A DNA stretch of 64,000 nt, from contig NZ_QGKL01000012.1 of NCBI RefSeq assembly GCF_003172895.1, forward strand, positions 62,001-126,000. Direction: 5' to 3'. Positions 3,719 to 37,283 of the stretch are shown one piece after another. Within the stretch, counting starts at the first letter, position 1, and the number at the start of each line of letters is the position of its first letter. The notes below the pieces were generated by a model, which ran no database searches, was not told where the DNA came from, and saw only the letters and a list, made by a program, of their open reading frames with translations. The DNA comes from Leucothrix arctica (lineage in GTDB: Bacteria; Pseudomonadota; Gammaproteobacteria; Thiotrichales; Thiotrichaceae). The position numbers were made by a program, and so were the translations under genes.

Positions 3719-3741
3719 GATGGGCTAAGGCTTGAAAGTGC

Positions 3742-4539: not shown

Positions 4540-4594
4540 AGTATGTTCTCATCGCTTGCTTTATAATCGCGTTTTCGCCTTATTGAGCGCCTAA

Positions 4595-6163: not shown

Positions 6164-6749
6164 CCAGTTACAAGTTCGCTTAAAAAAGGTGGTATTAGAT
6201 TACGATTTTAGCGTCAAAACAGGCGAGATCGTTACGATACAAGGACGCAGTGGTGTGGGTAAAACCACGTTACTCAATGTTATTGCAGGGTTTGAAAAAG
6301 CGTACAGCGGTGATGTTACGTGGCAAGGTGAGTCGCTACTCCATAAAAAAGTGACACAGCGTCCTGTCAGTATGTTGTTCCAAGAGCATAATTTATTTGA
6401 ACACTTAAGCGTGTGGCAAAACTTACAGTTTGGCTTGCAGGGCGAAGATATAAGCGAACGGATAAAGCAAGCAGCGGCAGTATTAGAAATTGCTGAGCAA
6501 TTAGACAAGCCACCGATGCAACTGTCAGGCGGTCAACGTCAGCGTATCGCTATTTTGCGTACGTTGCTTAGGCCAGAGCCGATTGTGTTACTTGATGAGC
6601 CATTTGCAGAGCTAGACTCAACCACACGACTGATTGCTAATGACTGGGTACGTGAGACAGCAAAGGCGACAAACAAAACAGTACTGCTGGTGACACATCA
6701 AGATGAAGATGTGGAGCGAGTAGGGGATTGGAACTTAGTACTTGGCTAA
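6150..6749 (+). CDS. thiQ: Thiamine ABC transporter ATP-binding protein
   Basis: The start is placed at the ATG at 6150 (MLKVSQLQV), preceded by GGAG and overlapping the thiP end. A longer in-frame start at 6111 lies inside thiP and has no ribosome-binding site. The 199-residue ATPase has Walker A GRSGVGKTT, Q-loop MLFQEHNLF, ABC signature LSGGQRQR, Walker B IVLLDEPFAELD and the H-loop LLVTHQDED. It is somewhat shorter than E. coli ThiQ (232). It powers the ThiP permease. Confidence 0.87.
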   Translation: MLKVSQLQVRLKKVVLDYDFSVKTGEIVTIQGRSGVGKTTLLNVIAGFEKAYSGDVTWQGESLLHKKVTQRPVSMLFQEHNLFEHLSVWQNLQFGLQGEDISERIKQAAAVLEIAEQLDKPPMQLSGGQRQRIAILRTLLRPEPIVLLDEPFAELDSTTRLIANDWVRETAKATNKTVLLVTHQDEDVERVGDWNLVLG

Positions 6750-6809
6750 CCAGCACTAAGGCTGGCAGATGACGAGGTAAGTCACGGTTGGGTTAGACCT
6801 TAAAGTGGT

Positions 6810-7451
6810 TTAGTCATCATAATGCACAACGGATTGCAGCTCTTTCCGCTTTTCCCATTCCAGCATCTCAAGTTCAGGGCTTTCCAAAAACTCATCGACA
6901 TAACCAATACACAGGTATGCGATGAGTTTGCTATCTGGCGATGACTTCAAAATTCCTTTCACCACTTCTGGGTCAATAATACTTACCCAGCCGAGACCAA
7001 TATTCATGGCTCTAGCCATCAACCACATGTTTTGAATAGCACACACAACACTGTATTCGCCCGCTTCTTTCATCGAGGTTTGACCTAACACGGGCTTCTT
7101 CGATGAGGTGTAGTAAACTGCAATATTGACAGGCGCTTCACGAATGCCTTCGAGCTTTAACTGAGAGTAGAGTGACTTTTTCTTACCCTCAAAGAGTACG
7201 TTAGCTTTTTGGTTTTCTGTCTCGAAACTTTCCACCACCTTGTTTTTAGTCTCCTCATTGCGAATCACTAAAAACTCCCAAGGCTGAGAGAATCCTACAG
7301 AAGGCGCGAGCGATGCAGCCATGAGGATTTTCTGTATGGCTTCTTGTGGGACAGGGGTTGATAGGAACTTATTACCGCGTACGTCTCGACGGTACAGCAT
7401 GATTTCTTCAAGAATCGCTTGGTCATCCACTGTAAATTGTTTGTTTTTCAT
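6810..7451 (-). CDS. bluB: 5,6-dimethylbenzimidazole synthase
   Basis: BluB is a nitroreductase-fold flavoenzyme that fragments reduced FMN with oxygen to make 5,6-dimethylbenzimidazole, the lower ligand of vitamin B12. The 213-residue protein shows RRDVRGNKF at 21-29, APSVGFSQPWEF at 49-60, SLKLEGIREAPVNI in the middle, GLGWVSI, and the C-terminal ESPELEMLEW pattern. All of these separate BluB from ordinary nitroreductases. It stands alone, with no other cobalamin gene in the window and no cobalamin-riboswitch-like sequence upstream. It could serve B12 remodelling or salvage rather than de novo synthesis. Confidence 0.85.
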   Translation of the reverse strand: MKNKQFTVDDQAILEEIMLYRRDVRGNKFLSTPVPQEAIQKILMAASLAPSVGFSQPWEFLVIRNEETKNKVVESFETENQKANVLFEGKKKSLYSQLKLEGIREAPVNIAVYYTSSKKPVLGQTSMKEAGEYSVVCAIQNMWLMARAMNIGLGWVSIIDPEVVKGILKSSPDSKLIAYLCIGYVDEFLESPELEMLEWEKRKELQSVVHYDD

Positions 7452-7632: not shown

Positions 7633-8883
7633 ATGTCATTTTGTGGTTTAGACTTTGGTACGAGTAACTCGACAATCGGTATTTATAAAAATAACGAGTT
7701 ACAAATGGTGATGTTGGATGATGACAAAACGTACCTTCGTTCAGCGATATTCCTTAATGCGGAAGAGCATGAGATTGTATTTGGAACACAGGCAATAGCA
7801 GACTACATCGAAGGCATTGATGGTCGTTTGATGACCTCGCTCAAGTCAGTGTTGGGCTCGTCGTTGATGGAAGAAAAAACTAATATTTTTAATGAAATGA
7901 AGCCATTTTCAGATATTCTTGGTTTCTTTATTAAGAATATGAAGCGCCAAGCGGAAAGCGTGCAGGGTCACGAGATTGATAGCGTTGTATTGGGCCGTCC
8001 TGTGCGATTCAACGACGATGACGATACCGTTGATAAGCTAGCAGAAGATACACTCCGCAATATTGCGGAAAAAGAAGGCTTTAAGAACATAGAGTTTCAG
8101 TTCGAACCTATCGCCGCAGCCTTGTCTTACGCGCAAACGGTTAAAACAGAAGAGTTGGCGCTGATTGTGGATATTGGTGGTGGTACGTCTGATTTCACAC
8201 TCATCAAAATTTCTCCTGAAGCAAGCGGCACTAAAACCGATATATTGGCCTCTTCTGGTGTGCATATTGGTGGAACTGACTTTGATCGCTTACTTAACTA
8301 CAACCATGTCATGCCTAGTTTTGGCTTGCACACGACAGTGCGAACGATGAATGGGAGTGACATTGAGATACCAACGTCATACTTCCGTAACTTATCAACG
8401 TGGCACAAAATAAATGATATGTATGGCAGAGAAGCGATGATTGATATGAGTCGTTTTCTGTCCACCTCGAATGATCAAGCCAAAACAAAGCGACTGAGAA
8501 CCTTACTGGAAAAGCGTGAAGGTCATCACTTATTGCAGATGGTTGAGAATGGCAAAAAGTATCTCTCAGACGAGGTTAAAACGACATTAGAGTTGGGCTT
8601 TATCGAGCAGGGCTTGAGTATAGATTTAGCTAAGGGTGACTTTGAAAACGTGATCAATCATGACCTGAATAAGATCAATACGGTCATTAATCAGCTGCTA
8701 AAAGATACTGGTATTGTTGCCTTACAGGTTGATGCGGTTTTCTTCACGGGTGGAACAACGCGCATTAAGAAGTTACAAGAAACGGTCATGAGTGAATTTT
8801 CAGACGCACGGATAGTCAACGGTGATGTGTTTAATAGTGTTGCAATGGGATTGAGTATTGATGCTCAAAACCGTTTCGCCTAA
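7633..8883 (+). CDS. yegD: Hsp70-family protein, YegD-like
   Basis: The 416-residue product contains the actin-like ATPase signatures of Hsp70: GLDFGTSNSTIGI at the N-terminus (phosphate 1), LIVDIGGGTSDFTLI near residue 180 (phosphate 2) and VFFTGGTTRIKKLQ near 375 (adenosine motif). It has no classical substrate-binding and lid domain. Length and organisation match E. coli YegD (450), an uncharacterised non-canonical chaperone. The ribosome-binding site TTTAGGA lies just before the ATG. It is probably monocistronic. Confidence 0.8.
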   Translation: MSFCGLDFGTSNSTIGIYKNNELQMVMLDDDKTYLRSAIFLNAEEHEIVFGTQAIADYIEGIDGRLMTSLKSVLGSSLMEEKTNIFNEMKPFSDILGFFIKNMKRQAESVQGHEIDSVVLGRPVRFNDDDDTVDKLAEDTLRNIAEKEGFKNIEFQFEPIAAALSYAQTVKTEELALIVDIGGGTSDFTLIKISPEASGTKTDILASSGVHIGGTDFDRLLNYNHVMPSFGLHTTVRTMNGSDIEIPTSYFRNLSTWHKINDMYGREAMIDMSRFLSTSNDQAKTKRLRTLLEKREGHHLLQMVENGKKYLSDEVKTTLELGFIEQGLSIDLAKGDFENVINHDLNKINTVINQLLKDTGIVALQVDAVFFTGGTTRIKKLQETVMSEFSDARIVNGDVFNSVAMGLSIDAQNRFA

Positions 8884-8992
8884 TAAATAATCAGTTTGTT
8901 AATTTAATCCAAGTTGCTTAACCGCTGATCTAACTGTGAGTTGACGTGATGACTTTCAGTCTTATTTCCACGAAAAATGTTACCAAGTGGCT

Positions 8993-9017
8993 GCTTGCTC
9001 GATCTAAACGAGCAAGC
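8993..9017. other. Perfect 9-bp inverted repeat, 7-base loop
   Basis: GCTTGCTCG and CGAGCAAGC flank a 7-base loop in the 174-base gap between the Hsp70-like gene and the DUF945 gene. No T-tract follows on either strand, so it is not a classical terminator. It could be an operator or an RNA stem. Confidence 0.5.
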
Positions 9018-9057
9018 TATAGTCTGTAATCACTTCACTTAAATATAAAATATAATC

Positions 9058-10548
9058 ATGAAAAAGCTATTAATTGCGGTTCCTCTAATTGCAATCGTTG
9101 GCGGTGCTGCTGCTCCGTTTGTTATTGGATCAAAAGTTGAAAGTGCAGCAAAGCAGTACATCGAGTTGGGAAACCAGCAGATGGAAAAAGCTTTAGCGGC
9201 GAATCCTCAGTTGTCAGAAGCTAAATTTGAATTAGACTCTTACGAGAAAGGTTACCTAAATGCTAAAGCGACAGGAAAAGTAACGTTTACGGCTAACTTA
9301 AATCTTAACGGCGCTAAGACTTACACGATTCCTTTTACAAGTGATGTGAAGCATGGCCCTTATTTAGGTGACGCAGGCTTTGGTGCTTCAAGCATTGTGA
9401 CTCGTCCTGACTTATCTGGTTTTGACTTGCCTGAATCAATCAACGAAGACACGATTATCATGAGTACGATTATCGGCTTTGCGGGCGATATGAAAAATAA
9501 TGCGGTGATTGCTCCAATCTCATTTGAAAATGATGGCGCAAACCTAGATTTTGCGGGTGCTGTTATTAACAGTGTTTCGCCAGATGCAAAGAACAGATCT
9601 ACCTTTACAGGTGATGCGGCAATTCAACAGCTAAAAATTACTCCTTCTAATGGCGAAGCTTTTGTATTAAAGCCGTTTACTATTGATATGGAAGGCAAGG
9701 GTGAAGCTGATTTAAGTAGCGGTACTTACTCTGTTAGCTCTAGTGCTATCGAAGGTGTAATCGGAGATGATGAAGGCTCTTTTTCGTTGCAGAAAATGGA
9801 CGCAAAAGGCACCTATAAAGATGCAGAAGGAACAGATGTCTTTTCAGTGGGAAGTGCTGAGGTATCTTTCTCTGACATAGAGATTAAGAGTGAAAACTTA
9901 CCAGAAGCTATTAAGCTGCCTAAGCTATCGTTTAGTTCGGCAGTTGAGCAAAACAGTGGTACTGATTTCGATATCCATGCGAAATATTCAGCGACTTTAG
10001 ACCCAAGCCTCATGCAAATGATGCGCTCTCCTGTAGATGTACAAACCGCTGAGATTGGCATCAAGCTTAAAGGCTTTTCTATAGAAGTTATGGAGCAGTA
10101 TCAAGCATTAATTGAGCAGTTAGTTGAAGCAGGTGACCAAGGTCAAGCAGCTGCAGAAGCGATTCAAGGTAAAGCACTGGGTATTGCTCAGTTGCTAGTA
10201 AAGAACGCAAGTTCAGCTAACCTAGAAATCCACGCTAAGTCGACTGAAGGTGACTTGGATGCTGACGTAGATGTTGGCTTTAAGCCAGGTCTAGAGCTAA
10301 GCGAAACTGAGCTAATGGGCCTAATGGGTGCGCCAGATCCTAGTCGTTTATTGGCTATCTTAGTGGGTCGTGGTGATGTGTCTTTGGCTAAAGGTATTAC
10401 TGACAAAGCAGGCGTAACGCCAATGATTCAAATGATGGCTGCTGACTTTGTTACTTTAGACGGTGAGACGTTTAAGTCTGATGTGAAAATCACTGACGGC
10501 AAGCTACTTATCAATGGTAATCCGTTACCTATGATGGGCGGTATGTAA
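9058..10548 (+). CDS. DUF945 family protein, YdgA-like
   Basis: The 496-residue protein starts with a basic n-region and hydrophobic segment (MKKLLIAVPLIAIVGGAAAP) that would export or anchor it at the inner membrane. The rest is a long, mostly beta-rich periplasmic region without cysteines or a catalytic motif. Length and pattern match the DUF945/YdgA family (E. coli YdgA 502), whose role is not defined. It forms a single-gene unit ending at the terminator at 10578-10616. Confidence 0.75.
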   Translation: MKKLLIAVPLIAIVGGAAAPFVIGSKVESAAKQYIELGNQQMEKALAANPQLSEAKFELDSYEKGYLNAKATGKVTFTANLNLNGAKTYTIPFTSDVKHGPYLGDAGFGASSIVTRPDLSGFDLPESINEDTIIMSTIIGFAGDMKNNAVIAPISFENDGANLDFAGAVINSVSPDAKNRSTFTGDAAIQQLKITPSNGEAFVLKPFTIDMEGKGEADLSSGTYSVSSSAIEGVIGDDEGSFSLQKMDAKGTYKDAEGTDVFSVGSAEVSFSDIEIKSENLPEAIKLPKLSFSSAVEQNSGTDFDIHAKYSATLDPSLMQMMRSPVDVQTAEIGIKLKGFSIEVMEQYQALIEQLVEAGDQGQAAAEAIQGKALGIAQLLVKNASSANLEIHAKSTEGDLDADVDVGFKPGLELSETELMGLMGAPDPSRLLAILVGRGDVSLAKGITDKAGVTPMIQMMAADFVTLDGETFKSDVKITDGKLLINGNPLPMMGGM

Positions 10549-10577
10549 TACTAGCGTTTATAAATAGTTAGTTCATT

Positions 10578-10621
10578 GAACCAGTCGCTACTCACTCTCG
10601 AGCAGCGGCTGGTTTTTAAGT
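10578..10621 (+). terminator. Intrinsic terminator after the DUF945 gene
   Basis: The stem AACCAGTCGCT pairs with AGCGGCTGGTT (one G-T wobble) across a loop of about 17 bases and runs into TTTTT. It follows the upstream plus-strand stop by about 30 bases. Confidence 0.75.
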
Positions 10622-10664
10622 GGTAAAGCTGATCAGCGACCCAACCACTTCAAACTTTTCCCTC

Positions 10665-13217
10665 TTAGTCATCGTCCAACTTGATTCTATTTAAACGCAG
10701 CGCGTTAGTAATAACCGACACCGAGCTTAAACTCATAGCGAATGCTGCAATCATTGGCGACAGCAATAACCCAAAGAAAGGGTAAAGCACGCCTGCTGCG
10801 ATAGGCACACCAAGTGCGTTATAGATAAAGGCAAAAAACAGGTTCTGTTTAATGTTTTGCATCACTCCCGTACCTAGGTTCTTAGCCTTCACAATTCCCA
10901 GTAGATCACCTTTGACTAACGTGACTTCACTGCTCTCGATAGCAACGTCAGACCCAGTCCCCATTGCGATACCCACATCCGCTTGGGCTAGTGCTGGAGC
11001 GTCGTTAATACCGTCCCCCGCCATTGCTACAATCTTGCCTTTGCTTTGTAGGTCTTTAATAAACTTGAGCTTATCTTCTGGAAGACATTCTGCCTGAAAG
11101 CTCGTTAAGCCTAAGCTATCAGCAACGCTTTTTGCTGTGCGTTGGTTGTCGCCTGTCAGCATAATCACCTCAACATCGTGAGCTTGTAAACTTTGAATTG
11201 CTTGTTTACTGGTTTCTTTGATAGCGTCGGTAATGGTGACAAAACCAAGCACTGCTTTCCCAACTGAAATATAGGAAACGGTTTTCCCTAACGCTTGTTC
11301 AGCGATGACTTGCTGATCTATTTCTGATGGGATTGTTGCACCGACTTGGTCCATAAGGTGCTTATTACCTAAGGCAACTTCTTTGCCATCAACTGTTCCC
11401 ATGACACCTTTACCTATCACTGACTCAAAATCCGTCGATGACAGTAACGAGATTGATTTCTCAGCGGCAAACTTTATAACAGCTTCAGCTAAAGGATGCT
11501 CACTGTATTGATTCAATGTCGCAATGTAGCCGAGGAGGGTAGCGTCAAACTGACCTTTAGCATCGACTACCTTTTCAACGGAAGGCTTACCTTCTGTAAT
11601 CGTGCCTGTCTTGTCAGTAATCAATACATCGACCTTGTTTAGGTTCTCTAATGCTTCGGCATTTTTGATGAGCACGCCATTTTTTGCACCTTTACCGATA
11701 CCCACCATCACTGACATCGGAGTAGCCAAACCTAAGGCGCAAGGGCATGCAATAATCAGCACTGCAATCGCATTTACAAAAGCAAATGACATGGCAGGCT
11801 CAGGCCCAAAAATAGCCCAGACAATGAATGTAATCACCGAGGCTAGCAACACTGCAGGTACGAAGTATTTTGCGACCTTATCGGCCAGTTTTTGTATGGG
11901 GGCACGAGACCGGCTGGCACTGTTAACCATTTGAATGATCTGTGAGAGTAGGGTCTCAGCCCCAATTTTGTCAGCCTTCATCACAAAAGACTTATTACCA
12001 TTGATCGTGCCAGAGTGGGCTTCATCACCCACCGACTTATCAACAGGGATTGGCTCACCACTAATCATCGACTCATCGATGTGACTCTGTCCTTTCGTGA
12101 TTTGGCCATCAACAGGCACTCTATCACCCGGTTTTACGCGTAACAGATCGCCCACTTTAATTAGGTCAATGGAGATGACCTTGTCGCCTTCTGGTGTAAT
12201 CAATGTTGCTTCGGTAGGGCTAAGCTGTAAAAGCTCTTTTATCGCACCACTTGTTTGGCTGTGCGCTCTTGCTTCGAGTAGCTGACCTAATAACACGAGC
12301 GTTAGAATAACGGCCGCCGCTTCAAAATAGACAAAGACAGTGCCGGATTCGGTTTTAAATTGGTCAGGGAAAATATCAGGGAAGAGTAGCGCCACCACAC
12401 TAAACGTCCATGCCACTCCCGTACCGATTCCAACGAGCGTAAACATGTTTAAGTTGAGTGTCGTGATTGACTTCCAAGCACGCTCAAAGAACATCCAGCC
12501 TGCATAAAAGACAACGGGCAATGAGAGAATCAGTTGCACCCAGTCCCAGCTTTTTTTAGACAGGAGAGCGTTCAATGGATCGTTTGAAATCATTTCAGAC
12601 ATGGAGATGATAAAGATGGGTAAGGTGAAAATAATAGCAATTTTCATCTTATGCATTAGGCTGTTATAAGCTTGGTCTTCCTCGTCATCAGTGGGCTGCA
12701 TTGCCACCAAATCCATACCACAAATAGGGCAAGAACCGGGCTTAGATTGGATAACCTCAGCATGCATAGGGCAAGTGTATTGCACGGTCTTAGGCGTTAA
12801 GTCTGGAACTTTGAGCAAGTCCATACCGCAGACAGGGCAGCCGCCTGCCTTGTCATAAACTTTGTCGCCTTCACAATGCATTGGGCAATGATATTTACCC
12901 GCCGCATCTTTTCCCAACTCAGGTGCAGGCTGACTATGGTCATGACTTGAGGTGCTACCACAGCAGGCGGGTTTATCTGCTGCTGTATCGACCTTTTCAT
13001 GACTATGATTTAACATCTCTATTGAGTAATTTCCCGCGCTGGATAAAGCACTTTGCATGACCTCAATAGCGACATGCGTCTCCATTTCGATTTCAGCTTG
13101 ATCGGGTAGGGTAACGGTCGCAAGTGTTACCCCTTCAATTGCATTAAGAGTACTTTCAACTGTTGAGCGGCAACCACCGCAAGTCATTCCAGATACTCGA
13201 TAACTATGTTTCATCAC
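10665..13217 (-). CDS. copA: Copper-translocating P1B-type ATPase with HMA and two HMBD zinc-ribbon-like domains
   Basis: The 850-residue ATPase exports Cu(I) from the cytosol. Domains in order are: an HMA domain with MTCGGC (Cys13, Cys16); two heavy-metal-binding domains of the form CPMH...CPxCGMDL at about 109-134 and 147-170; the actuator loop ISGEP; the metal-site CPC at 491-493 in CPCALGLATP; the phosphorylated Asp535 in DKTGT; and the hinge GDGINDAP. A His-rich linker (HDHSQ) separates HMA and HMBD domains. This architecture is typical of ATPases in plasmid- or island-type copper and silver resistance sets. It is the last gene of the copper operon. Confidence 0.93.
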   Translation of the reverse strand: MMKHSYRVSGMTCGGCRSTVESTLNAIEGVTLATVTLPDQAEIEMETHVAIEVMQSALSSAGNYSIEMLNHSHEKVDTAADKPACCGSTSSHDHSQPAPELGKDAAGKYHCPMHCEGDKVYDKAGGCPVCGMDLLKVPDLTPKTVQYTCPMHAEVIQSKPGSCPICGMDLVAMQPTDDEEDQAYNSLMHKMKIAIIFTLPIFIISMSEMISNDPLNALLSKKSWDWVQLILSLPVVFYAGWMFFERAWKSITTLNLNMFTLVGIGTGVAWTFSVVALLFPDIFPDQFKTESGTVFVYFEAAAVILTLVLLGQLLEARAHSQTSGAIKELLQLSPTEATLITPEGDKVISIDLIKVGDLLRVKPGDRVPVDGQITKGQSHIDESMISGEPIPVDKSVGDEAHSGTINGNKSFVMKADKIGAETLLSQIIQMVNSASRSRAPIQKLADKVAKYFVPAVLLASVITFIVWAIFGPEPAMSFAFVNAIAVLIIACPCALGLATPMSVMVGIGKGAKNGVLIKNAEALENLNKVDVLITDKTGTITEGKPSVEKVVDAKGQFDATLLGYIATLNQYSEHPLAEAVIKFAAEKSISLLSSTDFESVIGKGVMGTVDGKEVALGNKHLMDQVGATIPSEIDQQVIAEQALGKTVSYISVGKAVLGFVTITDAIKETSKQAIQSLQAHDVEVIMLTGDNQRTAKSVADSLGLTSFQAECLPEDKLKFIKDLQSKGKIVAMAGDGINDAPALAQADVGIAMGTGSDVAIESSEVTLVKGDLLGIVKAKNLGTGVMQNIKQNLFFAFIYNALGVPIAAGVLYPFFGLLLSPMIAAFAMSLSSVSVITNALRLNRIKLDDD

Positions 13218-28153: not shown

Positions 28154-28450
28154 CACTTTTAAGTAAAAAAAATGTACTTTTTTCATTTTAAAATCCAACA
28201 TCGACGTATCTTATTGTTTTAATTCTTTATTATTGTTATTGGTGCCGTCGTGTTGTAGCCCCTAGAAGCTGTTGATCATTCTACGGATGAGCGATGAACG
28301 GTTACTTAACTGTATTTTGTTTATAAAATATATTTATTAAGGCGTGCATTTGAGAATATGTTTTAAACAGAAGCAGTAATGATTGATTGATAGGCTTAGA
28401 GTTGGCCATAATGTTATTACACTCATTTTTTGACCTACCTTGGTAACCCC
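28154..28450. other. AT-rich intergenic region before the TrpD2-like gene
   Basis: About 300 bases between the tRNA promoter and the next start. I see no ORF, RNA gene or strong repeat. It presumably holds the promoter for the plus-strand gene at 28451. Confidence 0.4.
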
Positions 28451-29563
28451 ATGAATGAAATAACGCCTCAGCTGCACCTTCGTCAGTGCGTGCAAAAAGT
28501 TGCTACAGGTCCTGACTACAGTAAAGATCTCTCATTTGAAGATGCACGAGATGGGATGCTAGCTGTACTTGATAAGAATACAGATCCTGTTCAGAGCGCT
28601 ATTTTCTTCATCGCATTAAGAATGAAGCGTGAAACCGATGATGAAAACCGTGGCGTGTTACAGGCATTGATAGATAACTCTATTCAAGTGACGGCAGAGG
28701 TTGATGAGATCGTAGATATCTCAGACCCTTATGATGGTTATGCCCGTGGTGTGCCTGCGTCGCCTTTTTTGCCAGCGGTGTTGGCTGCTTTAGGTGTAAA
28801 TGCGGTATCTCACGGTTTAGAAGTTGTTGGACCTAAGTTTGGTGCGACACATCATCGTGTCTTAAAGGCTGCTGGACTTAATGTAGAGATGACATCGCAA
28901 CAGGCTGCAAAGCAAATCGAGTCTATTGGTTGGGCGTATATCGACCAAGAAAGTTTTGCGCCAAATTTAAGTGATCTAATGAGTCTTCGTGAGCGTATGG
29001 TTAAGCGCCAGATCTTAAATACGGTTGAGTCATTAATTGGCCCTATACGTGGTCGTAGCAAGACACACTTTATGTCGGGTTATGTGCATAAAGCATATCC
29101 ACCTATTTATGCGTCACTCGCAAGGCAGTCGGGTTTTGACTCAGCGATGTTTGTGCGCGGTGTTGAAGGTGGAACGATTCCTTCGTTACAGCAGCAAGGG
29201 CGACTATTTTACTACCAGGATAAGGGTGAGCTAGAGCAATTAGATGTGTCACCACAAGAAATTGATATCGAGGCGAGTTCACGTGCTGTGCCTGTTCCCG
29301 ATGGATTGCCTGAAGGTATTGTTTCAGCGGGTGTGACGGTGCCAGTTGACGGTACTGCACTGGCGGAAGTATCAGCTGAGCTAGGTTTAAAAGCATTAGC
29401 AGGTGAGCAGGGGCCTATGCATGACGCATTGATGTATGCAGCGAGTATTGCTTTAACGCATCTTAAAAAATACGAGACAATGCCTGAGGCTGCAAATGCG
29501 GTTAGAGTGGTGTTGGCGAGTGGCAAGGCGTTAGAGGTCTTTAATGCTGCAAGGAAGGCTTGA
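28451..29563 (+). CDS. TrpD2/YbiB-like phosphoribosyltransferase-fold protein
   Basis: The ATG at 28451 is preferred over a TTG at 28430. The 370-residue protein resembles the nucleoside phosphorylase/anthranilate phosphoribosyltransferase family (glycosyl transferase family 3). The usual glycine-rich GTGGD motif is replaced by DGYARGVPASPFLPAVLAALG near residue 100, and HGLEVVGPKFGATHHRVLKAAG follows. This fits the TrpD2/YbiB branch, whose E. coli member binds nucleic acid and lacks TrpD activity. It is upstream of the sulfur genes, but a link is only positional. It ends at a good terminator. Confidence 0.6.
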   Translation: MNEITPQLHLRQCVQKVATGPDYSKDLSFEDARDGMLAVLDKNTDPVQSAIFFIALRMKRETDDENRGVLQALIDNSIQVTAEVDEIVDISDPYDGYARGVPASPFLPAVLAALGVNAVSHGLEVVGPKFGATHHRVLKAAGLNVEMTSQQAAKQIESIGWAYIDQESFAPNLSDLMSLRERMVKRQILNTVESLIGPIRGRSKTHFMSGYVHKAYPPIYASLARQSGFDSAMFVRGVEGGTIPSLQQQGRLFYYQDKGELEQLDVSPQEIDIEASSRAVPVPDGLPEGIVSAGVTVPVDGTALAEVSAELGLKALAGEQGPMHDALMYAASIALTHLKKYETMPEAANAVRVVLASGKALEVFNAARKA

Positions 29564-30995: not shown

Positions 30996-31020
30996 TCTAG
31001 CTTGTTATAACCTCATTTGA

Positions 31021-31053
31021 AATAATGCCCGACTTGTTCGGGTATTATTTTGT
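31021..31053 (+). terminator. Terminator between the META-domain gene and dsrE
   Basis: AATAATGCCCGA pairs with TCGGGTATTATT (one G-T wobble) over a 6-base loop, followed by TTG. It implies that dsrE has its own promoter in the following 66 bases. Confidence 0.75.
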
Positions 31054-31119
31054 CTCCAATTTAGTGAAAAATAATTTACACTGGCTGGTTAAATGAGCTT
31101 ACCTCTAGGGGCGTTTTGG

Positions 31120-31512
31120 ATGAAATACACGTTAATGATTAATGAAGGGCCGTATCAGCGTCAATCTTCTGATACAGCGTTGCATTTTGCACGTGCCGTA
31201 TTAGCTAAAGGACATGAGGTTATTCGGGTGTTTTTCTATCATGACGGTGTAAACAATGGAACGCGTTTGAGTGTGCCACCTAGGGATGACCGTCAAATCC
31301 AACAGGCGTGGTCTGATTTGGCTAAAGCGCATTCTCTGGATTTAGTGATTTGTATTGCTGCAGCTCAGCGTCGTGGTATTACCGATGCTAAAGAAGCAAA
31401 GCGCCAAGGTTTAGATACGGATAATCTTTTGGAAGGCTTTCGTATCTCAGGTCTGGGGCAACTTATTGAAGGCTCTGTCGAAGCTGATCGTACTTTGGTG
31501 TTTGGAGGTTAA
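31120..31512 (+). CDS. dsrE: Sulfurtransferase subunit DsrE (TusD-like)
   Basis: The ATG at 31120 gives 130 residues, the length of Allochromatium vinosum DsrE, and AGGGG stands before it. An ATG at 31093 would add nine residues without homology. DsrE is the catalytic subunit of the DsrE2F2H2 hexamer that relays persulfide sulfur to DsrC in the cytoplasm. The active Cys78 is present in LVICIAAAQRRG. FFYHDGVNN is the conserved core. Confidence 0.93.
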   Translation: MKYTLMINEGPYQRQSSDTALHFARAVLAKGHEVIRVFFYHDGVNNGTRLSVPPRDDRQIQQAWSDLAKAHSLDLVICIAAAQRRGITDAKEAKRQGLDTDNLLEGFRISGLGQLIEGSVEADRTLVFGG

Positions 31513-31517
31513 CGGTT

Positions 31518-31922
31518 ATGGCGATTAAGAAATTTATGTTTGTAAATCGTAAAGCGCCTTATGGCAGTGTTTATGCCTTGGAGTCTTTAGAGGTAGTGCT
31601 GATTTCTGCGGCCTTTGATCAAGATGTCTCGTTGGCTTTTTTAGATGATGGTGTTTATCAAATCACTAAAAACCAAGACACCACTGGGATAGGACAAAAG
31701 AACTTTTCCGCTGCTTATAAAGCGTTAGGCGATTATGAAATCAATAAGCTCTATGTGGAAAAAGAGTCTTTAGAAGAGCGAGGGCTTACAATAGCCGACT
31801 TGATGCCGCTAATGTGGGAAGATGAAGATGATGATTATCAGGAAAAGTCTTCTATTTACTTGGTGAATAGGGCTGAAATGGCGGATATTATGGCGACTCA
31901 AGAAGTCGTGATTAGTTTTTAG
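31518..31922 (+). CDS. dsrF: Sulfur relay subunit DsrF (TusC-like)
   Basis: The 134-residue protein belongs to the DsrE/F fold and is a structural subunit of DsrEFH. It has KKFMFVNRKAPYGSVYA at the N-terminus, as in TusC/DsrF. No catalytic cysteine is present, as expected for this subunit. Its ribosome-binding site GGAGG overlaps the end of dsrE. Confidence 0.9.
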   Translation: MAIKKFMFVNRKAPYGSVYALESLEVVLISAAFDQDVSLAFLDDGVYQITKNQDTTGIGQKNFSAAYKALGDYEINKLYVEKESLEERGLTIADLMPLMWEDEDDDYQEKSSIYLVNRAEMADIMATQEVVISF

Positions 31923-31933
31923 GAGGTACTTAT

Positions 31934-32242
31934 ATGGCTATGTTACACATTGTGAATAAGTCGCCTTTTGAAAGAACGGCGTTTGAGTCTTGCTTGAAGC
32001 ATATTTCGGTAGGTGACTCGGTGTTGATGATCGAAGATGCGGTCGTTGGTGCTATGCAAAATACGCGTTTTTCTGCACATATTGAGCAAGCATTACAAGA
32101 GAGTTCAGTTTATGTGTTGTCAGGAGATTTGGCTGCACGAGGCTTGAGCCAAGAGCGAATAATTAGTGGTGTGACAGCGGTTGATTATGAAGGGTTTGTT
32201 GACCTAACAGTCGAGTGCGATACCACGCAAAGCTGGCTATGA
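31934..32242 (+). CDS. dsrH: Sulfur relay subunit DsrH (TusB-like)
   Basis: The 102-residue protein carries the conserved Cys20 of DsrH in FESCLKHISVGDSVLMIED, and the terminal region ends in W-L as in many DsrH/TusB proteins. It completes the DsrEFH hexamer. AGGAGG precedes the ATG. Confidence 0.9.
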   Translation: MAMLHIVNKSPFERTAFESCLKHISVGDSVLMIEDAVVGAMQNTRFSAHIEQALQESSVYVLSGDLAARGLSQERIISGVTAVDYEGFVDLTVECDTTQSWL

Positions 32243-32293
32243 GTTATTGATTAGCGGGCTAGGTTTAAAAATTAAGTAATAAGGAGAGCGCAA

Positions 32294-32626
32294 ATGGCAC
32301 TCGAAGTAAATGGTGTGGCGGTTGAGTTGGACGAAGAAGGTTATCTAATGGAGCTGGAAGATTGGACGCCGGAAGTGGCTAAAACTTTCGCGGCGGAAGA
32401 TGATATTGAATTGAGCGAAGAGCACTGGGACATTATCAACTTTTTGCGTGAGTACTATGAAGAGTACCAAATCGCACCAGCAGTACGTGTTTTAACAAAG
32501 GCCGTTGGTAAGCGTTTGGGGAAAGAGAAAGGGAATTCAAAGTACCTTTATTCTTTATTCCCATTTGGTCCTGGTAAGCAAGCGTGTAAGTACGCGGGGT
32601 TACCAAAGCCAACAGGCTGTGTGTGA
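32294..32626 (+). CDS. dsrC: Sulfur carrier protein DsrC
   Basis: The 110-residue protein ends in the flexible arm with two redox cysteines. Cys109 (penultimate) and Cys98 are 11 positions apart in ACKYAGLPKPTGCV. TusE proteins, used only for tRNA thiolation, lack the second cysteine, so this is a true DsrC able to carry a trisulfide. It receives sulfur from DsrEFH and is the partner of the membrane DsrMK. It sits between dsrH and dsrM with its own ribosome-binding site (AGGAGAG). Confidence 0.95.
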   Translation: MALEVNGVAVELDEEGYLMELEDWTPEVAKTFAAEDDIELSEEHWDIINFLREYYEEYQIAPAVRVLTKAVGKRLGKEKGNSKYLYSLFPFGPGKQACKYAGLPKPTGCV

Positions 32627-32653
32627 TCGTCGTTTTTAGCAGAGGGCGCTAAG

Positions 32654-33394
32654 GTGTTTTTGGGGATTGTTTACGGTATTTTATTTTGGATTGCGACCTT
32701 GGTTTTAGTACTGGGTGTTGCAAATAAAGTATGGCTGTATTCACGAATTCCTGCGCCGCTAAAAATACCAACCATGCCTGCACCGCGCACGCTTACAGGT
32801 GTGCTTTGGCGAATGGCTCGCGAGTTGCTGCTGTTTCAAAGTTTGTTTCGTGCAGATAAGTTGTTATGGGCAATTAGCATGGTGTTTCACTATGCGTTGT
32901 TGCTGGTTGTCATTCGGCACTTACGTTATGTGCAGGAGCCTATTTGGTCGCTGGTGATTTTCTTGCAGCCATTTGGGAAGTACGCAGGTTTTGCTTTGGT
33001 GTTGTCATTGTCTGGATTGTTGGCAAGACGTTTTTTGATTGACCGTGTGCGCTATATCTCGGCACCATCTGATTTTTTGATGTTGGTGTTGCTGATTTTT
33101 ATTGCCTGTAGTGGCTTGATGATGCGCTATGTAAACCCGACTGATATTGTCATGGTGAAGGCGTTTTTTGTGGGTCTGAAGACGTTTAACTGGCAGCCAC
33201 TTCCATCAGATATTACGTTGTTACTGCACTTGTTTGCGGTGGCGTTTTTGATGTTGATATTCCCTATTAGTAAACTGATGCATGCACCGGGTGTGTTCTT
33301 TAGCCCAACGCGTAATCAAGTGGACAACTCACGAGAGCGACGACACATTGCTTCATGGGCTGCTGAACTTGAAAAAGATGATCGAAAAAAGTGA
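32654..33394 (+). CDS. dsrM: DsrM, haem b membrane subunit
   Basis: A GTG start follows GAGGGCG. The 246-residue protein has about five or six membrane segments and belongs to the nitrate reductase gamma-subunit family. Histidines within membrane segments (for example MVFHYALLLVVIRHLRY) would bind two b haems. DsrM links the quinone pool to the cytoplasmic DsrK. dsrAB, which stands before dsrEFHC in known sulfur oxidisers, is absent. Confidence 0.9.
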   Translation: MFLGIVYGILFWIATLVLVLGVANKVWLYSRIPAPLKIPTMPAPRTLTGVLWRMARELLLFQSLFRADKLLWAISMVFHYALLLVVIRHLRYVQEPIWSLVIFLQPFGKYAGFALVLSLSGLLARRFLIDRVRYISAPSDFLMLVLLIFIACSGLMMRYVNPTDIVMVKAFFVGLKTFNWQPLPSDITLLLHLFAVAFLMLIFPISKLMHAPGVFFSPTRNQVDNSRERRHIASWAAELEKDDRKK

Positions 33395-33441
33395 TGCTCA
33401 ATATCCCACTACCTGACTTAACCAGCAAAGAGAGCAAATAG

Positions 33442-34980
33442 ATGGCTAAGTACGAAGCGCCAAAACTAAGCTCTGACGATGGTTTGGTTGATGTACCCAA
33501 ATTAAAACCCGATGCTACGAAAGGACCAGGACCGTTTATTGCACGTCCTGAGTTTCAAAAGGCGCTCGGTTTTCCTTCCGATATTGAGAAAGATGAAGAG
33601 GGTAAATGGTCACTTATTCCAAATTGGAAAGAGGCCGCACTAGAAAAGCTGAATGAGTTACGAGGTAAGTACCGTTCGTTGCAGCTGTATTTAGATATTT
33701 GCGTGAAGTGTGGTGCCTGTGCTGATAAGTGCCATTATTACCTTGGCAGTGGTGACCCTAAAAACATGCCTGTTGCGCGACAAGATTTGCTGCGTAATGT
33801 TTACCGCCGTTACTTCACCTTTTCAGGTAAGTACTTTCCGAAATTAGTTGGCGCAACTGAACTGACCGAAGAAGTCGTTGATGATTGGTATAACTACTAT
33901 CACCAATGTTCTCAGTGTCGTCGTTGCTCTGTGTATTGCCCATACGGTATTGATACTGCGGAAGTGTCGATGGCTGCGCGTGAGATTTTGAATCACATTG
34001 GGCGTGGGCAAAAGTACTCTACTGAGATCATTGGAAAAGTACATAAAGTGGGTAATAACTTAGGCTTACCGCAAGCCGCTTTGGCGGATACGCTGGAAGG
34101 CTTAGAAGAAGATATTGAAGAGGAAACAGGGGTTGCCGTTAAGCTGCCTTTGGATGTAAAGGGCGCGGATATTTTATTAGTCACGCCTTCTGCTGATTTC
34201 TTCGCAGAGCCTCATGTTGATGGCTTGATTGGTTACGCTAAAGTGCTTCATGAGTTAGGTGAAAGCTGGACTTTGAGCTCTTATGCGTCTGAAGGTGCTA
34301 ACTTTGGCCTGTTCATTGGTAGTTACGACAGTATGCGCGATATTGCGCTGCGTATACGTCAGGCAGCAATAGACTTAGGGGTTAAGCGAATTGTCTTTGG
34401 TGAATGTGGTCATGCTTGGCGTGTGGCATACAGTTTCTTAAATACATTGGCGGGTCCATTTGAGTTTCTTGATCAAAAATACCCAATACCACAACACATG
34501 CTAGAGCTCACTTGGCCCGCTTTACGTGATGGAAAGTTGAATATTGATAAGTCGCGAAATGACGATATGACACTGACTTTTCATGACTCCTGCAATGTCG
34601 CTCGTGGCTCTAACATGGGTGACAAAGAGGGCGGTCAGTTTGACTTTCCTCGCGGTGTTATTAAAGCAGTGTGTAATAATTTCGTTGAAATGCCTAAGGG
34701 TACAACGAAAGATGAGACTTTCTGCTGTGGTGCCGGTGGTGGTATTTTGACGGATGACTTGATGGATATTCGTATTAAAGGCGCGCAGCCTAGAATGCAG
34801 GCGTTAAAGCATGTTGCAGATAATCACGGCGTGACGCACATGGCGGCCATCTGCGCGATTTGTAAGTCTCAATTTAGCAAAACGTTACCGTACTTCGGCT
34901 TTGAGATGGATCAAATTGTGAGTGTTCATCAGCTAGTGAGTAATGCAATCGTTCTAACTGGACAGGTTGATGATGACTAA
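33442..34980 (+). CDS. dsrK: DsrK, HdrD-like iron-sulfur subunit
   Basis: The 512-residue cytosolic subunit has two 4Fe-4S motifs, CVKCGACADKC and CSQCRRCSVYC (about residues 88-160). Two CCG-type domains follow, with FGECGHAWR, FHDSCNVARG, FCCGAGGG and ICAICKSQF, the site of the special cluster that handles DsrC disulfide or trisulfide. It pairs with DsrM. The gene end overlaps dsrJ by 8 bases. dsrL, which often follows dsrK in sulfur oxidisers, is missing. Confidence 0.95.
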   Translation: MAKYEAPKLSSDDGLVDVPKLKPDATKGPGPFIARPEFQKALGFPSDIEKDEEGKWSLIPNWKEAALEKLNELRGKYRSLQLYLDICVKCGACADKCHYYLGSGDPKNMPVARQDLLRNVYRRYFTFSGKYFPKLVGATELTEEVVDDWYNYYHQCSQCRRCSVYCPYGIDTAEVSMAAREILNHIGRGQKYSTEIIGKVHKVGNNLGLPQAALADTLEGLEEDIEEETGVAVKLPLDVKGADILLVTPSADFFAEPHVDGLIGYAKVLHELGESWTLSSYASEGANFGLFIGSYDSMRDIALRIRQAAIDLGVKRIVFGECGHAWRVAYSFLNTLAGPFEFLDQKYPIPQHMLELTWPALRDGKLNIDKSRNDDMTLTFHDSCNVARGSNMGDKEGGQFDFPRGVIKAVCNNFVEMPKGTTKDETFCCGAGGGILTDDLMDIRIKGAQPRMQALKHVADNHGVTHMAAICAICKSQFSKTLPYFGFEMDQIVSVHQLVSNAIVLTGQVDDD

Positions 34981-35377
34981 GTGGCGTTATCTTCTGGCGT
35001 TAATGCTTTCTTTGCTTTTGCTTGCTTGTAGTCATGAGCAAGAGAGTACTTTGACACCGACGTTAATGGCGGCTCAGAAACAGTTTGAAACGGTGGAGCA
35101 GCGTGATTTACACATTGCGGAAATGCGTACTAATCACATGAATTTATTGAAGCACAAGCGTGACCGTACGGTATACCAAGGAATTCGCACGCCTAAGCAT
35201 AGTTTGAATGGCTGCATCGATTGCCACGTGCCAGTGCCTACGGTTAATAAGACAGTGAAACATACTGATAGCGAGCACTTTTGTATGACTTGTCACGTTG
35301 AGTTAGCGGTTAAAATAGACTGTTTTCAGTGCCATGCCGACCGACCACCTGTGTCAGAAAAAGCGGTAAAGCCATGA
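34973..35377 (+). CDS. dsrJ: DsrJ, triheme periplasmic cytochrome c
   Basis: The ATG at 34973 is preferred (ACAGG about 6 bases before), over TTG 34967 and ATG 34970. The 134-residue protein has a hydrophobic N-terminus ending LLLLACS, which reads as a lipobox (Cys19). Three haem c motifs follow: CIDCH (81-85), CMTCH (104-108) and CFQCH (117-121). Between residues 20 and 80 there is no cysteine, although the family's reported Cys haem ligand lies in that interval in Allochromatium. The stop overlaps the dsrO start (ATGA). Confidence 0.92.
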   Translation: MTKWRYLLALMLSLLLLACSHEQESTLTPTLMAAQKQFETVEQRDLHIAEMRTNHMNLLKHKRDRTVYQGIRTPKHSLNGCIDCHVPVPTVNKTVKHTDSEHFCMTCHVELAVKIDCFQCHADRPPVSEKAVKP

Positions 35378-36108
35378 CTAACGTGAATTTAATTGATCGC
35401 TACCGACGTAAGTTTTTAGGTGGTATAGCAGCTGCAACTGGTGCGGCTTTGGCGCCGGGTATATTGCTGAGAGAAGCCGGCGCAAATCCACATGATCAAG
35501 CAGTCAGTAATAAAGTGCGTTGGGGAATGTTGATCGACACCAATAAGCTCAAAGATGGTGGTGATGCAATGGTTGCCGCGTGTAAGAAAGAACATGGTTG
35601 GGGCGATGAGCCAAACTCAAAGCCTGAACAACAAGGTCAATGGGCGCGTAAAGTTACCTTCCAAGATAAAGCCAGTGATCATAAGGTGTCGTTGCCAGTG
35701 ATGTGTCAGCACTGTGAAGAGCCGCCTTGTGTAGATGTTTGTCCAACAGGCGCGTCATTTAAACGTGATGATGGCATTGTCTTAGTCGACAAGCATATTT
35801 GCATTGGCTGTCGGTATTGCATGACAGCATGTCCTTATAATGCACGTAGTTTTGTTCACGAAAACTTGGAAAACCAAAAGCCACACTCACCACGAGGAAT
35901 AGGGACGGTTGAGTCCTGTAATCTGTGCGTGCATAGAGTGGATGCGGGTAAGCAACCAGCCTGCGTCGAAGCAGCTGCTGATGCGGTTATCTTTGGTGAT
36001 TTGAATGATCCTAGCAGTACGATCAGTAAGTCCCTGAAAAAGTATGAAGCCCAGCAAATCCGAGCAGACCTAGGTTTGAATACGGGTGTTCGGTACTGGG
36101 GGATTTAA
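35374..36108 (+). CDS. dsrO: DsrO, periplasmic ferredoxin-like subunit
   Basis: The start at 35374 overlaps the dsrJ stop and puts the twin-arginine signal RRKFLGG near residue 10. An earlier in-frame start would be inside dsrJ. The 244-residue protein has cysteine groups for several 4Fe-4S clusters: CQHCEEPPCVDVC, CIGCRYCMTAC and CNLCVHRVDAGKQPAC. It transfers electrons between DsrJ and the membrane subunit DsrP. Confidence 0.92.
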   Translation: MTNVNLIDRYRRKFLGGIAAATGAALAPGILLREAGANPHDQAVSNKVRWGMLIDTNKLKDGGDAMVAACKKEHGWGDEPNSKPEQQGQWARKVTFQDKASDHKVSLPVMCQHCEEPPCVDVCPTGASFKRDDGIVLVDKHICIGCRYCMTACPYNARSFVHENLENQKPHSPRGIGTVESCNLCVHRVDAGKQPACVEAAADAVIFGDLNDPSSTISKSLKKYEAQQIRADLGLNTGVRYWGI

Positions 36109-36113
36109 GTTAA

Positions 36114-37283
36114 ATGCAACGAACTGACTTTCATGAAATTGAGATAAGTAGTCGCCGCTTTTACTCCATCCTAGTTACCTTGGCTGGCGTTCTAGTCGCA
36201 GCGGCTTATGCCTTTTTTTATATGGAAAGTCAGGGCCATTTCGTCACGGGGATGAATAACCAAGTGGTGTGGGGTTTGCCGCATGTTGTGGCTATATTCC
36301 TTATCGTGACGGCATCTGGCGCAGCAAATGTTGCCAGCTTAGGTTCGGTGTTTAATAAGCCTGCTTATCAGCCTTATGGGCGAATATCGTTAGTGTTAGC
36401 GATGTCTTTATTACTGGGTGGGCTGCTCGTTATTTTGTTAGACCTGGGTCATGCAGACCGACTCATTATCGCCATGACACACTTTAATTTTGACTCTGTT
36501 TTTGCGTGGAATATCCTGTTGTATAGCGGGTTCTTTGTGATTATGGGGTTATATCTGTGGTCGATCATGGATCGTACCGCTACGGCTAAGCGTTGTTATC
36601 AACCTTTGGCTTACTTAGGTTTTGTTTGGCGCTTCATTTTAACGGCTGGGACAGGTTCTATTTTTGGAGTGTTGGTTGCACGCGAGTACTACGATATTTT
36701 GATGATGGCACCGTTGTTTATTGCTTCTTCTTATCTGATAGGAACAGCATGTTTTAGCTTGGTATTATTACTTCTTTATAAGCTGGAAGGGCGGCAATTA
36801 AGTGAGGTAATAAAGAGTCGCTTAGCGATTAGCCTATGCCTATGTATTGTTGTAGTAACATTGATTGAACTCGCTCGACATCTACTTAATTACTTCATAA
36901 TGGGTTACACGGCGGTTGAGGTATTTGTCTTGCGTGATGCGGGCGCGGTGACCCTTATGTTTTGGTTGGGGCAGGTAGTGATAGGCTTGGTATTGCCAAT
37001 TATTTTATTGTACTTGCCTAGCGTTAAAAGAAGTCGTTTAGCGATTGCCTCTACCTTGATTATGCTGGGCGGATTATGTCAGCTCTACGTCATTATTATT
37101 GGTGGTCAGTTACAGCCCTTAAGGCTATTTCCCAATGCAGTGACGGAGACTAGCGGAAATCTAGATATAGCTTATTCAGCGTCCCTTCCAGAGCTTATGT
37201 TATCGTTGGGAGGAGTGGCTATCACGCTATTTGTATTCACTATTGCTGTAAAAGTGTTACGGCTTACGCCTGCTAATTCTTAA
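36114..37283 (+). CDS. dsrP: DsrP, NrfD/PsrC-type membrane subunit
   Basis: The 389-residue integral membrane protein has about ten segments and the NrfD-family pattern (FVTGMNNQVVWGLPHVVAIF; later LDLGHADRLI). It would exchange electrons between DsrO and the quinone pool. It follows dsrO by five bases and closes the dsrMKJOP block. Confidence 0.92.
   Translation: MQRTDFHEIEISSRRFYSILVTLAGVLVAAAYAFFYMESQGHFVTGMNNQVVWGLPHVVAIFLIVTASGAANVASLGSVFNKPAYQPYGRISLVLAMSLLLGGLLVILLDLGHADRLIIAMTHFNFDSVFAWNILLYSGFFVIMGLYLWSIMDRTATAKRCYQPLAYLGFVWRFILTAGTGSIFGVLVAREYYDILMMAPLFIASSYLIGTACFSLVLLLLYKLEGRQLSEVIKSRLAISLCLCIVVVTLIELARHLLNYFIMGYTAVEVFVLRDAGAVTLMFWLGQVVIGLVLPIILLYLPSVKRSRLAIASTLIMLGGLCQLYVIIIGGQLQPLRLFPNAVTETSGNLDIAYSASLPELMLSLGGVAITLFVFTIAVKVLRLTPANS

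Follow-up and report, generated by a model that had tools for sequence, protein, structure and literature searches.

The closest described counterpart of the locus analyzed here is the oxidative (reverse) Dsr operon found in Thiotrichaceae and Chromatiaceae, with the gene order dsrABEFHCMKLJOPNR (Allochromatium vinosum type). To our knowledge, the action of DsrMKJOP on DsrC in sulfur oxidisers (i.e., redox form and direction) has not been settled, as DsrAB is nearly always present. A second counterpart is the TusA-TusBCD-TusE relay for tRNA thiolation, a pathway in which we know of no part for MKJOP.

Dsr systems without the complete core have been reported previously. Leucothrix mucor DSM 2157 was described as carrying SoxXYZAB and SoeABC and lacking conserved core-pathway proteins (PMC6397845), and the lack of a core pathway in this species is already published; L. 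mucor may be in the same state as Leucothrix arctica, although retention of EFHC-MKJOP is not stated in the available text of that paper. In Halomonas titanicae SOB56, DsrMKJOP components and DsrEFH were reported without DsrAB, and the authors suggest a role in sulfur transport (PMC9237845); by the part of their description available to us this strain resembles L. arctica, but Tus proteins may underlie the annotation. For 7 assemblies, DsrMK was likewise reported in the absence of DsrAB (PMC10504309); according to the available text, these belong to the basal DsrMK clade, which is described as having dsrMK and no dsrJOP, unlike L. arctica with its full MKJOP. The available portions of PMC11406059, PMC10532065, PMC5728499, and PMC4853749 contain no mention of a dsrAB-less operon in Leucothrix.

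Gene content of the L. arctica locus

The window, a 64 kb stretch of the L. arctica genome (G000; 4.75 Mb, 44 contigs, 99.58% complete, Leucothrix group), contains the entire dsrEFHC-MKJOP set, as the first-pass annotation had proposed; the nine open genes form one tight run on the + strand (31120–37283; Table 1). The locus matches the A. vinosum-type operon in gene order, sequence, two-cysteine DsrC, and full MKJOP; DsrEFH, the two-cysteine DsrC, and DsrMKJOP, all required by the oxidative Dsr pathway, are thus present. NCBIfam models name the products, in order, TusD/DsrE, TusC/DsrF, TusB/DsrH, DsrC/TusE, DsrM, DsrK, DsrJ, DsrO, and DsrP, in agreement with the Pfam domains. DsrE, DsrF, DsrH, DsrC, DsrK, and DsrO pass the curated NCBIfam cut-offs, while DsrM (167 of 300 bits), DsrJ (38 of 100), and DsrP (64.5 of 350) score below theirs. 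Because DsrM, DsrJ, and DsrP of two dsrAB-carrying relatives, G029 (locus L103) and Thiofilum (L015), likewise miss these cut-offs, the low scores are a property of the models.

Table 1. Positions of the nine genes and of the upstream junction in the L. arctica window.
Feature	Position	Strand	Remarks
dsrE (TusD homologue)	31120..31512	+	130 aa; in-frame ATG at 31093 is a possible longer start; NCBIfam, Pfam
dsrF (TusC homologue)	31518..31922	+	134 aa; NCBIfam, Pfam
dsrH (TusB homologue)	31934..32242	+	102 aa; conserved Cys kept; NCBIfam, Pfam
dsrC	32294..32626	+	110 aa; two C-terminal Cys; sole DsrC/TusE family match of the genome
dsrM, membrane subunit	32654..33394	+	246 aa; GTG start; conserved His kept 5/5
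dsrK, Fe-S subunit with CCG domain	33442..34980	+	512 aa; conserved Cys kept 15/15
dsrJ	34967..35377	+	136 aa; three CXXCH motifs; TTG at 34967, ATG at 34970
dsrO, Fe-S subunit	35374..36108	+	244 aa; conserved Cys kept 12/12
dsrP, NrfD-type membrane subunit	36114..37283	+	389 aa; accelerated in L. arctica
META-domain gene/dsrE junction	30996..31119		site of dsrAB in relatives; no remnant found

The C-terminal end of DsrC (...ACKYAGLPKPTGCV) carries both cysteines, which bears out the earlier description of a two-cysteine protein; its best PDB match is the DsrC entry 1yx3, which we take to be DsrC from A. vinosum. DsrE keeps its conserved Cys and three of four conserved His. The CCG motif of DsrK reads CCGAGGG, with A found only in L. 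arctica and its sister genome G028 at a position where 46 of 48 aligned DsrK sequences have G; a phmmer search of this DsrK against the PDB at 1e-10 gave no match. The dsrJ frame overlaps dsrK by 14 bp, leaving no space for dsrL, and no trace of dsrL was found between the two genes. A promoter scan gave 7 sites (13.2 expected). An aromatic aminotransferase gene located behind dsrP was rejected as an operon member, because it does not adjoin dsrP in G028.

Search for the missing dsr genes

Queries for dsrA, dsrB, dsrL, dsrN, and dsrR gave no tblastn match in the 64 kb window (E 1e-5, repeated at 1e-4), confirming the absence of these genes noted earlier, and no dsrA, dsrB, dsrL, or dsrN was found in the whole genome at its 99.58% completeness. 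Frames with an NIR_SIR domain in L. arctica are confined to CysI, a protein of the NirA family, and one that is NirB-like (the last judged by eye), and a NirB-like frame is the sole match of the dsrA model. The protein on contig C37 passes NF010029 and misses the CysI model TIGR02041 (735.5 vs. 756.55 bits), while the C22 protein passes the NirA-family model. An assimilatory sulfite reductase acting as a special DsrAB substitute was considered and set aside; similar-length frames are among the matches of dsrAB-carrying relatives. The dsrA model matched one 820-aa and one 593-aa frame in G028 and nothing in G041, a genome of another genus; no DsrB-like frame was found in L. arctica, G028, or G041, although this model picks up DsrB in other genomes. 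For DsrL there was no match at E 1e-40 in L. arctica (19 of 26 first-look candidates scored) or G028, and in G041 there was only a 506-aa frame (35% identical) of a kind also present in other genomes. A query for DsrN, the siroheme amidation protein, the sequence of which was partly guessed, gave no match in these three genomes; the same query matched 10 of 13 genomes, nine of these at 71–87% identity. DsrAB, DsrL, and DsrN, also required by the oxidative Dsr pathway, were thus not found in L. arctica, so that the sulfite-forming step of the A. vinosum-type operon is missing.

The first-pass annotation had raised the possibility that dsrAB lies elsewhere in the genome, so that the locus would be only one part of a split cluster with an intact dsrABL; no such genes were found, as far as the genome is complete. 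A split cluster, or dsrABL dropped in assembly, is very improbable: while the genome is in 44 contigs and short of 100% complete, four separate genes were not found, contig C4 continues for 208 kb through the locus, and G028, assembled in 2 contigs, has the same nine-gene run.

Gene order in relatives and class-wide survey

Of the best 80 related loci (DsrK 67–85% identical to that of L. arctica), 72 include dsrE, and in 71 of these it is preceded by dsrB, the exception (L064) beginning with dsrE; dsrK and dsrJ are both visible in 72, with dsrL between them in 69. Given this near-universal placement, the lack of dsrB and dsrL at the L. arctica locus is not due to chance. Across Thiotrichaceae, dsrE follows dsrB in 41 of 45 loci and dsrL lies between dsrK and dsrJ in 43 of 46, and the L. 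arctica window breaks both of these family rules. The only ones of 54 family loci without dsrB before dsrE are those of L. arctica, G028, G041, and the fragmentary G033; the first three are also the only ones without dsrL between dsrK and dsrJ. G033 is at most a possible further case: dsrE lies behind a fragment that looks MurA-like, but this MAG is 69% complete, its contig ends in dsrK, and dsrN is present.

DsrK was detected at 1e-100 in 127 of 369 genomes of the class. With L. arctica, G037, and G044 set aside, dsrA was searched for in 80 of the remaining 124 (all those at least 97% complete and two at 95–96%) and was matched at 1e-60 in 76. The four others include one in which dsrB is present and dsrA is cut by the contig end (G280), two with only dsrC-M-K (G319 and G414), and one with only dsrK-J (G345).

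The same nine-gene operon is present in G028 and in G041, which supports the earlier proposal of DsrC and DsrMKJOP without DsrAB. L. arctica and G028 are sisters (support 1.0), while G041 groups with G037, G038, G039, G042, and G044 (support 0.996), all five of which have dsrA; because the pair and G041 thus sit apart, at least two losses of the missing block are indicated. G029, a near relative of L. arctica, has the full operon, and G030, of the same genus as L. arctica, has dsrEFHC only. One DsrC copy each was found in L. arctica, G028, G041, and G030, and 2–8 copies in nine other genomes examined; TusA is present in 13 of 13 genomes.

Sequence constraint and possible decay

Full operon, EFHC-MKJOP, and EFHC could represent successive stages in the genus, with EFHC retained solely for tRNA thiolation by a TusBCD-TusE relay and MKJOP a remnant in the process of being lost. 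We consider this relic scenario conceivable but somewhat unlikely. The dsrEFHC genes of G030 lie directly behind a YcaO gene passing the S12-methylthiolation factor model, which is consistent with such a scenario, as are the single DsrC of each reduced genome and the retention of both DsrC cysteines in G030 despite the lack of MKJOP. L. arctica has homologues of TusBCD, TusA, and DsrC as its one TusE-family protein, but this DsrC differs from that of the Tus relay in carrying the second Cys; the accessible text of PMC3397948 describes this residue as almost always replaced in DsrAB-less bacteria, which speaks against a relic in L. arctica; G030 does not follow this pattern either.

Also against a relic, the five MKJOP frames are open in all three genomes with the nine-gene operon; between L. 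arctica and G028, in which all nine frames are open, pS is near saturation (0.65–0.90) and pN is 0.09–0.29. All family-conserved Cys of DsrK, DsrO, DsrJ, DsrC, DsrE, and DsrH are kept in the three genomes. The MKJOP/EFHC terminal-branch ratio, for which EFHC is the yardstick and may itself be relaxed, is not raised in G028 (1.23) or G041 (1.41; median 1.57 over 19 branches), while that of L. arctica (2.33) is the sixth highest of 19 and its DsrP/EFHC ratio (4.97; median 2.1) the highest. DsrP of L. arctica has changes at 13 of 100 otherwise invariant positions and keeps three of four conserved His; over the nine proteins, such changes number 31 in L. arctica and 19 in G041, compared to 35 control genomes in which the median is 1 and the highest count 16. 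Otherwise conserved His are missing in DsrE and DsrP of L. arctica, DsrO of G028, and DsrP of G041. Because DsrP is accelerated in L. arctica, decay of the module in this genome is possible.

Other sulfur genes

L. arctica has soxB (contig C33; 862 bits, cut-off 550), as does G028, and both genomes have a three-gene cluster (molybdopterin, Fe-S, and DmsC-type proteins) of soeABC-like make-up; in L. arctica no NCBIfam model over its cut-off or naming SoeA covers this cluster. Retention of these genes, as well as the Sox and Soe content described for L. mucor in the accessible text of PMC6397845, would fit replacement of DsrAB by another enzyme (e.g., a persulfide dioxygenase) that makes sulfite from DsrC-bound or low-molecular persulfide, with a route from Sox through DsrEFHC/MKJOP and Soe running to sulfate. 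Such a replacement seems doubtful, as G041 shares the reduced operon, yet neither soxB nor a SoeC-like match was found there.

HdrB-type cysteine-rich subunits belong to the domain content of the sHdr pathway. The five cysteine-rich-domain matches in L. arctica comprise a LutA-like protein (by appearance), DsrK itself, and an FAD oxidase frame of 1285 aa, with no HdrB-type protein among them; the HdrB-like match on C29 sits in what looks like a lutABC/lldEFG-like lactate locus, and the C20 match is the FAD oxidase. The sHdr system suggested earlier as a possible partner thus found no support, and a DsrC-MKJOP module working with an sHdr/LbpA pathway is highly improbable, even though Dsr and sHdr are described in the available part of PMC6397845 as substituting for each other or coexisting among sulfur oxidisers.

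Proposed role and implications

The reading we favor, at about even confidence, is that of a dsr operon of the oxidative type that lacks the sulfite-reductase block and in which the DsrEFH-DsrC relay and DsrMKJOP remain as a DsrAB-independent persulfide/thiol-quinone redox partner. The block (A, B, L, and N) would have disappeared from an originally complete operon at this same position, probably on two or more occasions, with the relay and the membrane complex retained. TusA and DsrEFH may continue to deliver sulfane sulfur to DsrC, in part to support 2-thiolation of tRNA as in the Tus pathway, a role that would by itself be sufficient to explain EFHC without any lithotrophy. DsrK of DsrMKJOP would pass electrons between DsrC, in its thiol, persulfide, or trisulfide form, and either the quinone pool or the periplasm, so that the module would serve as a redox partner independent of DsrAB. 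DsrMKJOP is not known to act without DsrAB, and the lack of MKJOP in G030 as well as the accelerated DsrP and many changed invariant positions of L. arctica also weigh against this reading. More tentatively, DsrEFHC-DsrMKJOP could possibly be a free-standing DsrC persulfide/thiol-quinone oxidoreductase operating without any dissimilatory sulfite reductase. Selection would then have maintained it in two lineages independently, and G041, with no soxB and no SoeC-like gene found, is perhaps no thiosulfate oxidiser.

L. arctica, G028, and G041 resemble natural deletion mutants for DsrAB, DsrL, and DsrN that retain the membrane complex together with one DsrC; because these reduced genomes stand beside G029 with the full operon and G030 with EFHC only, the role of DsrMKJOP becomes testable. 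They also add further exceptions to the rule that a two-cysteine DsrC means DsrAB, and use of dsrMKJOP, dsrC, or dsrEFH as metagenome markers may overcount sulfur oxidation.

Absence of the sulfite reductase block

The nine-gene dsr run of Leucothrix arctica has intergenic gaps, from dsrE to dsrP in order, of 5, 11, 51, 27, 47, −14, −4, and 5 bases, dsrK and dsrJ being the frames that overlap by 14 bases. The family that the first-pass annotation had assigned to each of the nine proteins was borne out. DsrM, DsrJ, and DsrP scored below the NCBIfam cut-offs; the same three proteins of Thiofilum and of G029, a genome of the same genus, likewise fall under these cut-offs, although both genomes carry dsrAB. 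The window's DsrC contains both cysteines, and its top PDB match is a DsrC entry (1yx3). The closest DsrK among the matches listed (85%) is that of an uncultured Leucothrix sp. (L006).

The absence of dsrAB, which the first-pass annotation had noted for the window, extends to the whole genome (4.75 Mb, 99.58% complete), as genome-wide searches with NIR_SIR and the dsrA model yielded no DsrAB frame. The NIR_SIR domain was found in three frames, one CysI-type and one NirA-family (both identified by model scan) and one NirB-like (identified by inspection); the dsrA model matched only the NirB-like frame. The genome gave no DsrL match at 1e-40 (19 of 26 first-look candidates scored) and no DsrN match at 1e-10, and tblastn detected no remnants of dsrA, dsrB, or dsrL in the window.

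Coordinates of dsr genes and neighboring features in the window and in compared loci
Record	Positions	Feature
Window	31120–37283	dsrE, F, H, C, M, K, J, O, P; one strand, all frames open
Window	28445–29563	trpD/YbiB-like glycosyltransferase gene near the dsr operon; also near it in G028
Window	21871–23715	gene for a SulP-family sulfate permease that includes a STAS domain; distance to the operon about 7 kb
L216 (G319)	about 8000–10472	two-Cys dsrC-dsrM-dsrK; no EFH, JOP, or AB at locus
L217 (G414)	about 4630–7101	two-Cys dsrC-dsrM-dsrK; no EFH, JOP, or AB at locus
L218 (G345)	8807–10680	dsrK, then dsrJ only
L209 (G030)	3598–5796	OsmC/YcaO gene directly before dsrEFHC
L104 (G041)	4500–6683	similar OsmC/YcaO gene (by inspection), adjoining dsrP

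Gene order and number of losses

Among 80 loci with related DsrK compared for gene order, dsrB precedes dsrE in 71 of the 72 showing dsrE (the sole exception, L064, begins with dsrE), and dsrL lies between dsrK and dsrJ in 69 of the 72 showing both; the other three (L035, L046, and L074) have no dsrL at this position and carry dsrAB. Within the family, DsrK scored above the cut-off in 49 and DsrA in 43 of 63 genomes, many of which are incomplete. For the 54 family loci fetched for the gene-order count, dsrB precedes dsrE in 41 of 45 showing dsrE, the remainder being L. arctica, G028, G041, and G033 (a fragmentary MAG with a contig ending in dsrK); dsrL separates dsrK and dsrJ in 43 of 46, with the first three of these genomes as the remainder. 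A dsrO-dsrP-like stretch upstream of dsrA was seen in a Ca. Thiothrix singaporensis record (L022), and a dsrP-like gene in the same position in G056 (locus L156). Two MAGs titled Halobacteria archaeon and Acidobacteriota (L044 and L058), with DsrK 69–70% identical to the window's inside dsr operons, are probably misbinned contigs or misnamed records.

The identical nine-gene set is present in G028, a 100% complete genome of the same genus in 2 contigs, which retains dsrR and a two-component system behind it, and in G041 (different genus; 96%). No DsrK match was obtained in G030 (same genus; 97%), whose retained dsrEFHC genes follow META and YcaO genes, and G029 has the whole operon. L. arctica and G028 share a left flank of trpD-like, TlpA-like, and META genes in conserved order, and META and TlpA-like genes also lie near the locus in G030 and G029, suggesting that the block was lost at one site within the genus, to which the comparison of sites applies (G041 lies outside it). 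Trees of the nine Dsr proteins pair L. arctica with G028 at a support of 1.0 and, at 0.996, group G041 with G037, G038, G039, G042, and G044, all of which carry dsrA; the same block was therefore lost at least twice. DsrK position 431 is A only in L. arctica and G028 and G in 46 of 48 sequences, and position 94, T in 46 of 48, is changed in both of these genomes (A and S); these changes fit a single loss in their common ancestor without proving it.

Occurrence in the class and published record

DsrK was found in 127 of 369 genomes of the class, and a dsrA search of 80 DsrK-carrying genomes gave 76 matches. In G280 dsrA is cut off by a contig end, the locus of G319 and G414 (one genus) holds dsrC-dsrM-dsrK only, and G345 gave no dsrA match genome-wide and no additional dsr gene within 20 kb. 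In the class sample, DsrK therefore seldom occurs without DsrA, but such cases are not limited to Leucothrix. A trpD/YbiB-like gene lies within about 7 kb of dsrC-dsrM-dsrK in G319 and G414.

Published reports describe SoxXYZAB and SoeABC, with conserved core-pathway proteins absent, in Leucothrix mucor DSM 2157 (PMC6397845), claim DsrMKJOP components and DsrEFH without DsrAB for Halomonas titanicae SOB56 (PMC9237845), and note basal DsrMK in seven assemblies that lack DsrAB (PMC10504309). Our limited search, with subscription papers and figures outside its scope, found no published description of the retained EFHC-MKJOP block of Leucothrix.

Selection on DsrMKJOP

DsrMKJOP may have been kept as a redox partner of DsrC or, less probably, may be a relic. 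L. arctica, G028, and G041 retain every family-conserved cysteine of DsrE, H, C, K, J, and O; a few conserved histidines are lost (in DsrE and DsrP of L. arctica, DsrO of G028, and DsrP of G041). The comparison of L. arctica with G028 gives near-saturated synonymous sites and a pN of 0.09–0.29. The ratio of MKJOP to EFHC terminal-branch length is 1.23 in G028, 1.41 in G041, and 2.33 in L. arctica, against a median of 1.57 over 19 branches (each with EFHC length > 0.04), and for DsrP alone the L. arctica ratio (4.97) is the highest of the 19; therefore, by this measure, MKJOP is unrelaxed relative to EFHC in two of the three reduced genomes, and DsrP is drifting or adapting in L. arctica, which counts against retention as a redox partner in that genome itself. 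The number of changed control-invariant positions, which is 31 in L. arctica, 19 in G041, and 10 in G028 (three of these from start-codon choice), compared with a median of 1 (maximum 16) in 35 control genomes (all nine proteins and dsrB before dsrE; incomplete sets and odd-length frames left out), also argues against such retention where it is raised, in L. arctica and G041. The L. arctica excess is greatest in DsrP (13 of 100 invariant positions) and DsrK (9 of 273); G041 has 7 changed invariant DsrK positions.

Possible function

L. arctica, G028, G041, and G030 each have one DsrC copy, the nine other genomes examined have 2–8, and TusA is present in all 13; a Tus-type thiolation role would therefore account for EFHC, and not for MKJOP. 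By analogy with its known role with DsrC, MKJOP may serve as a persulfide/thiol–quinone partner. soxB and a SoeABC-like cluster are kept in L. arctica and G028; no SoeC-like match was found in G041 or G030, and SoxB gave no match in G041 and only a weak one, under the cut-off, in G030. A published rule, stated with listed exceptions (PMC3397948), ties the first of the two cysteines of DsrC to DsrAB; by these data, L. arctica, G028, G041, and G030 are further exceptions. The YcaO protein encoded next to dsrEFHC in G030 passes the S12 methylthiolation (accessory) factor model, and the OsmC/YcaO neighbors in G030 and G041 hint that the relay is linked to ribosome thiolation.
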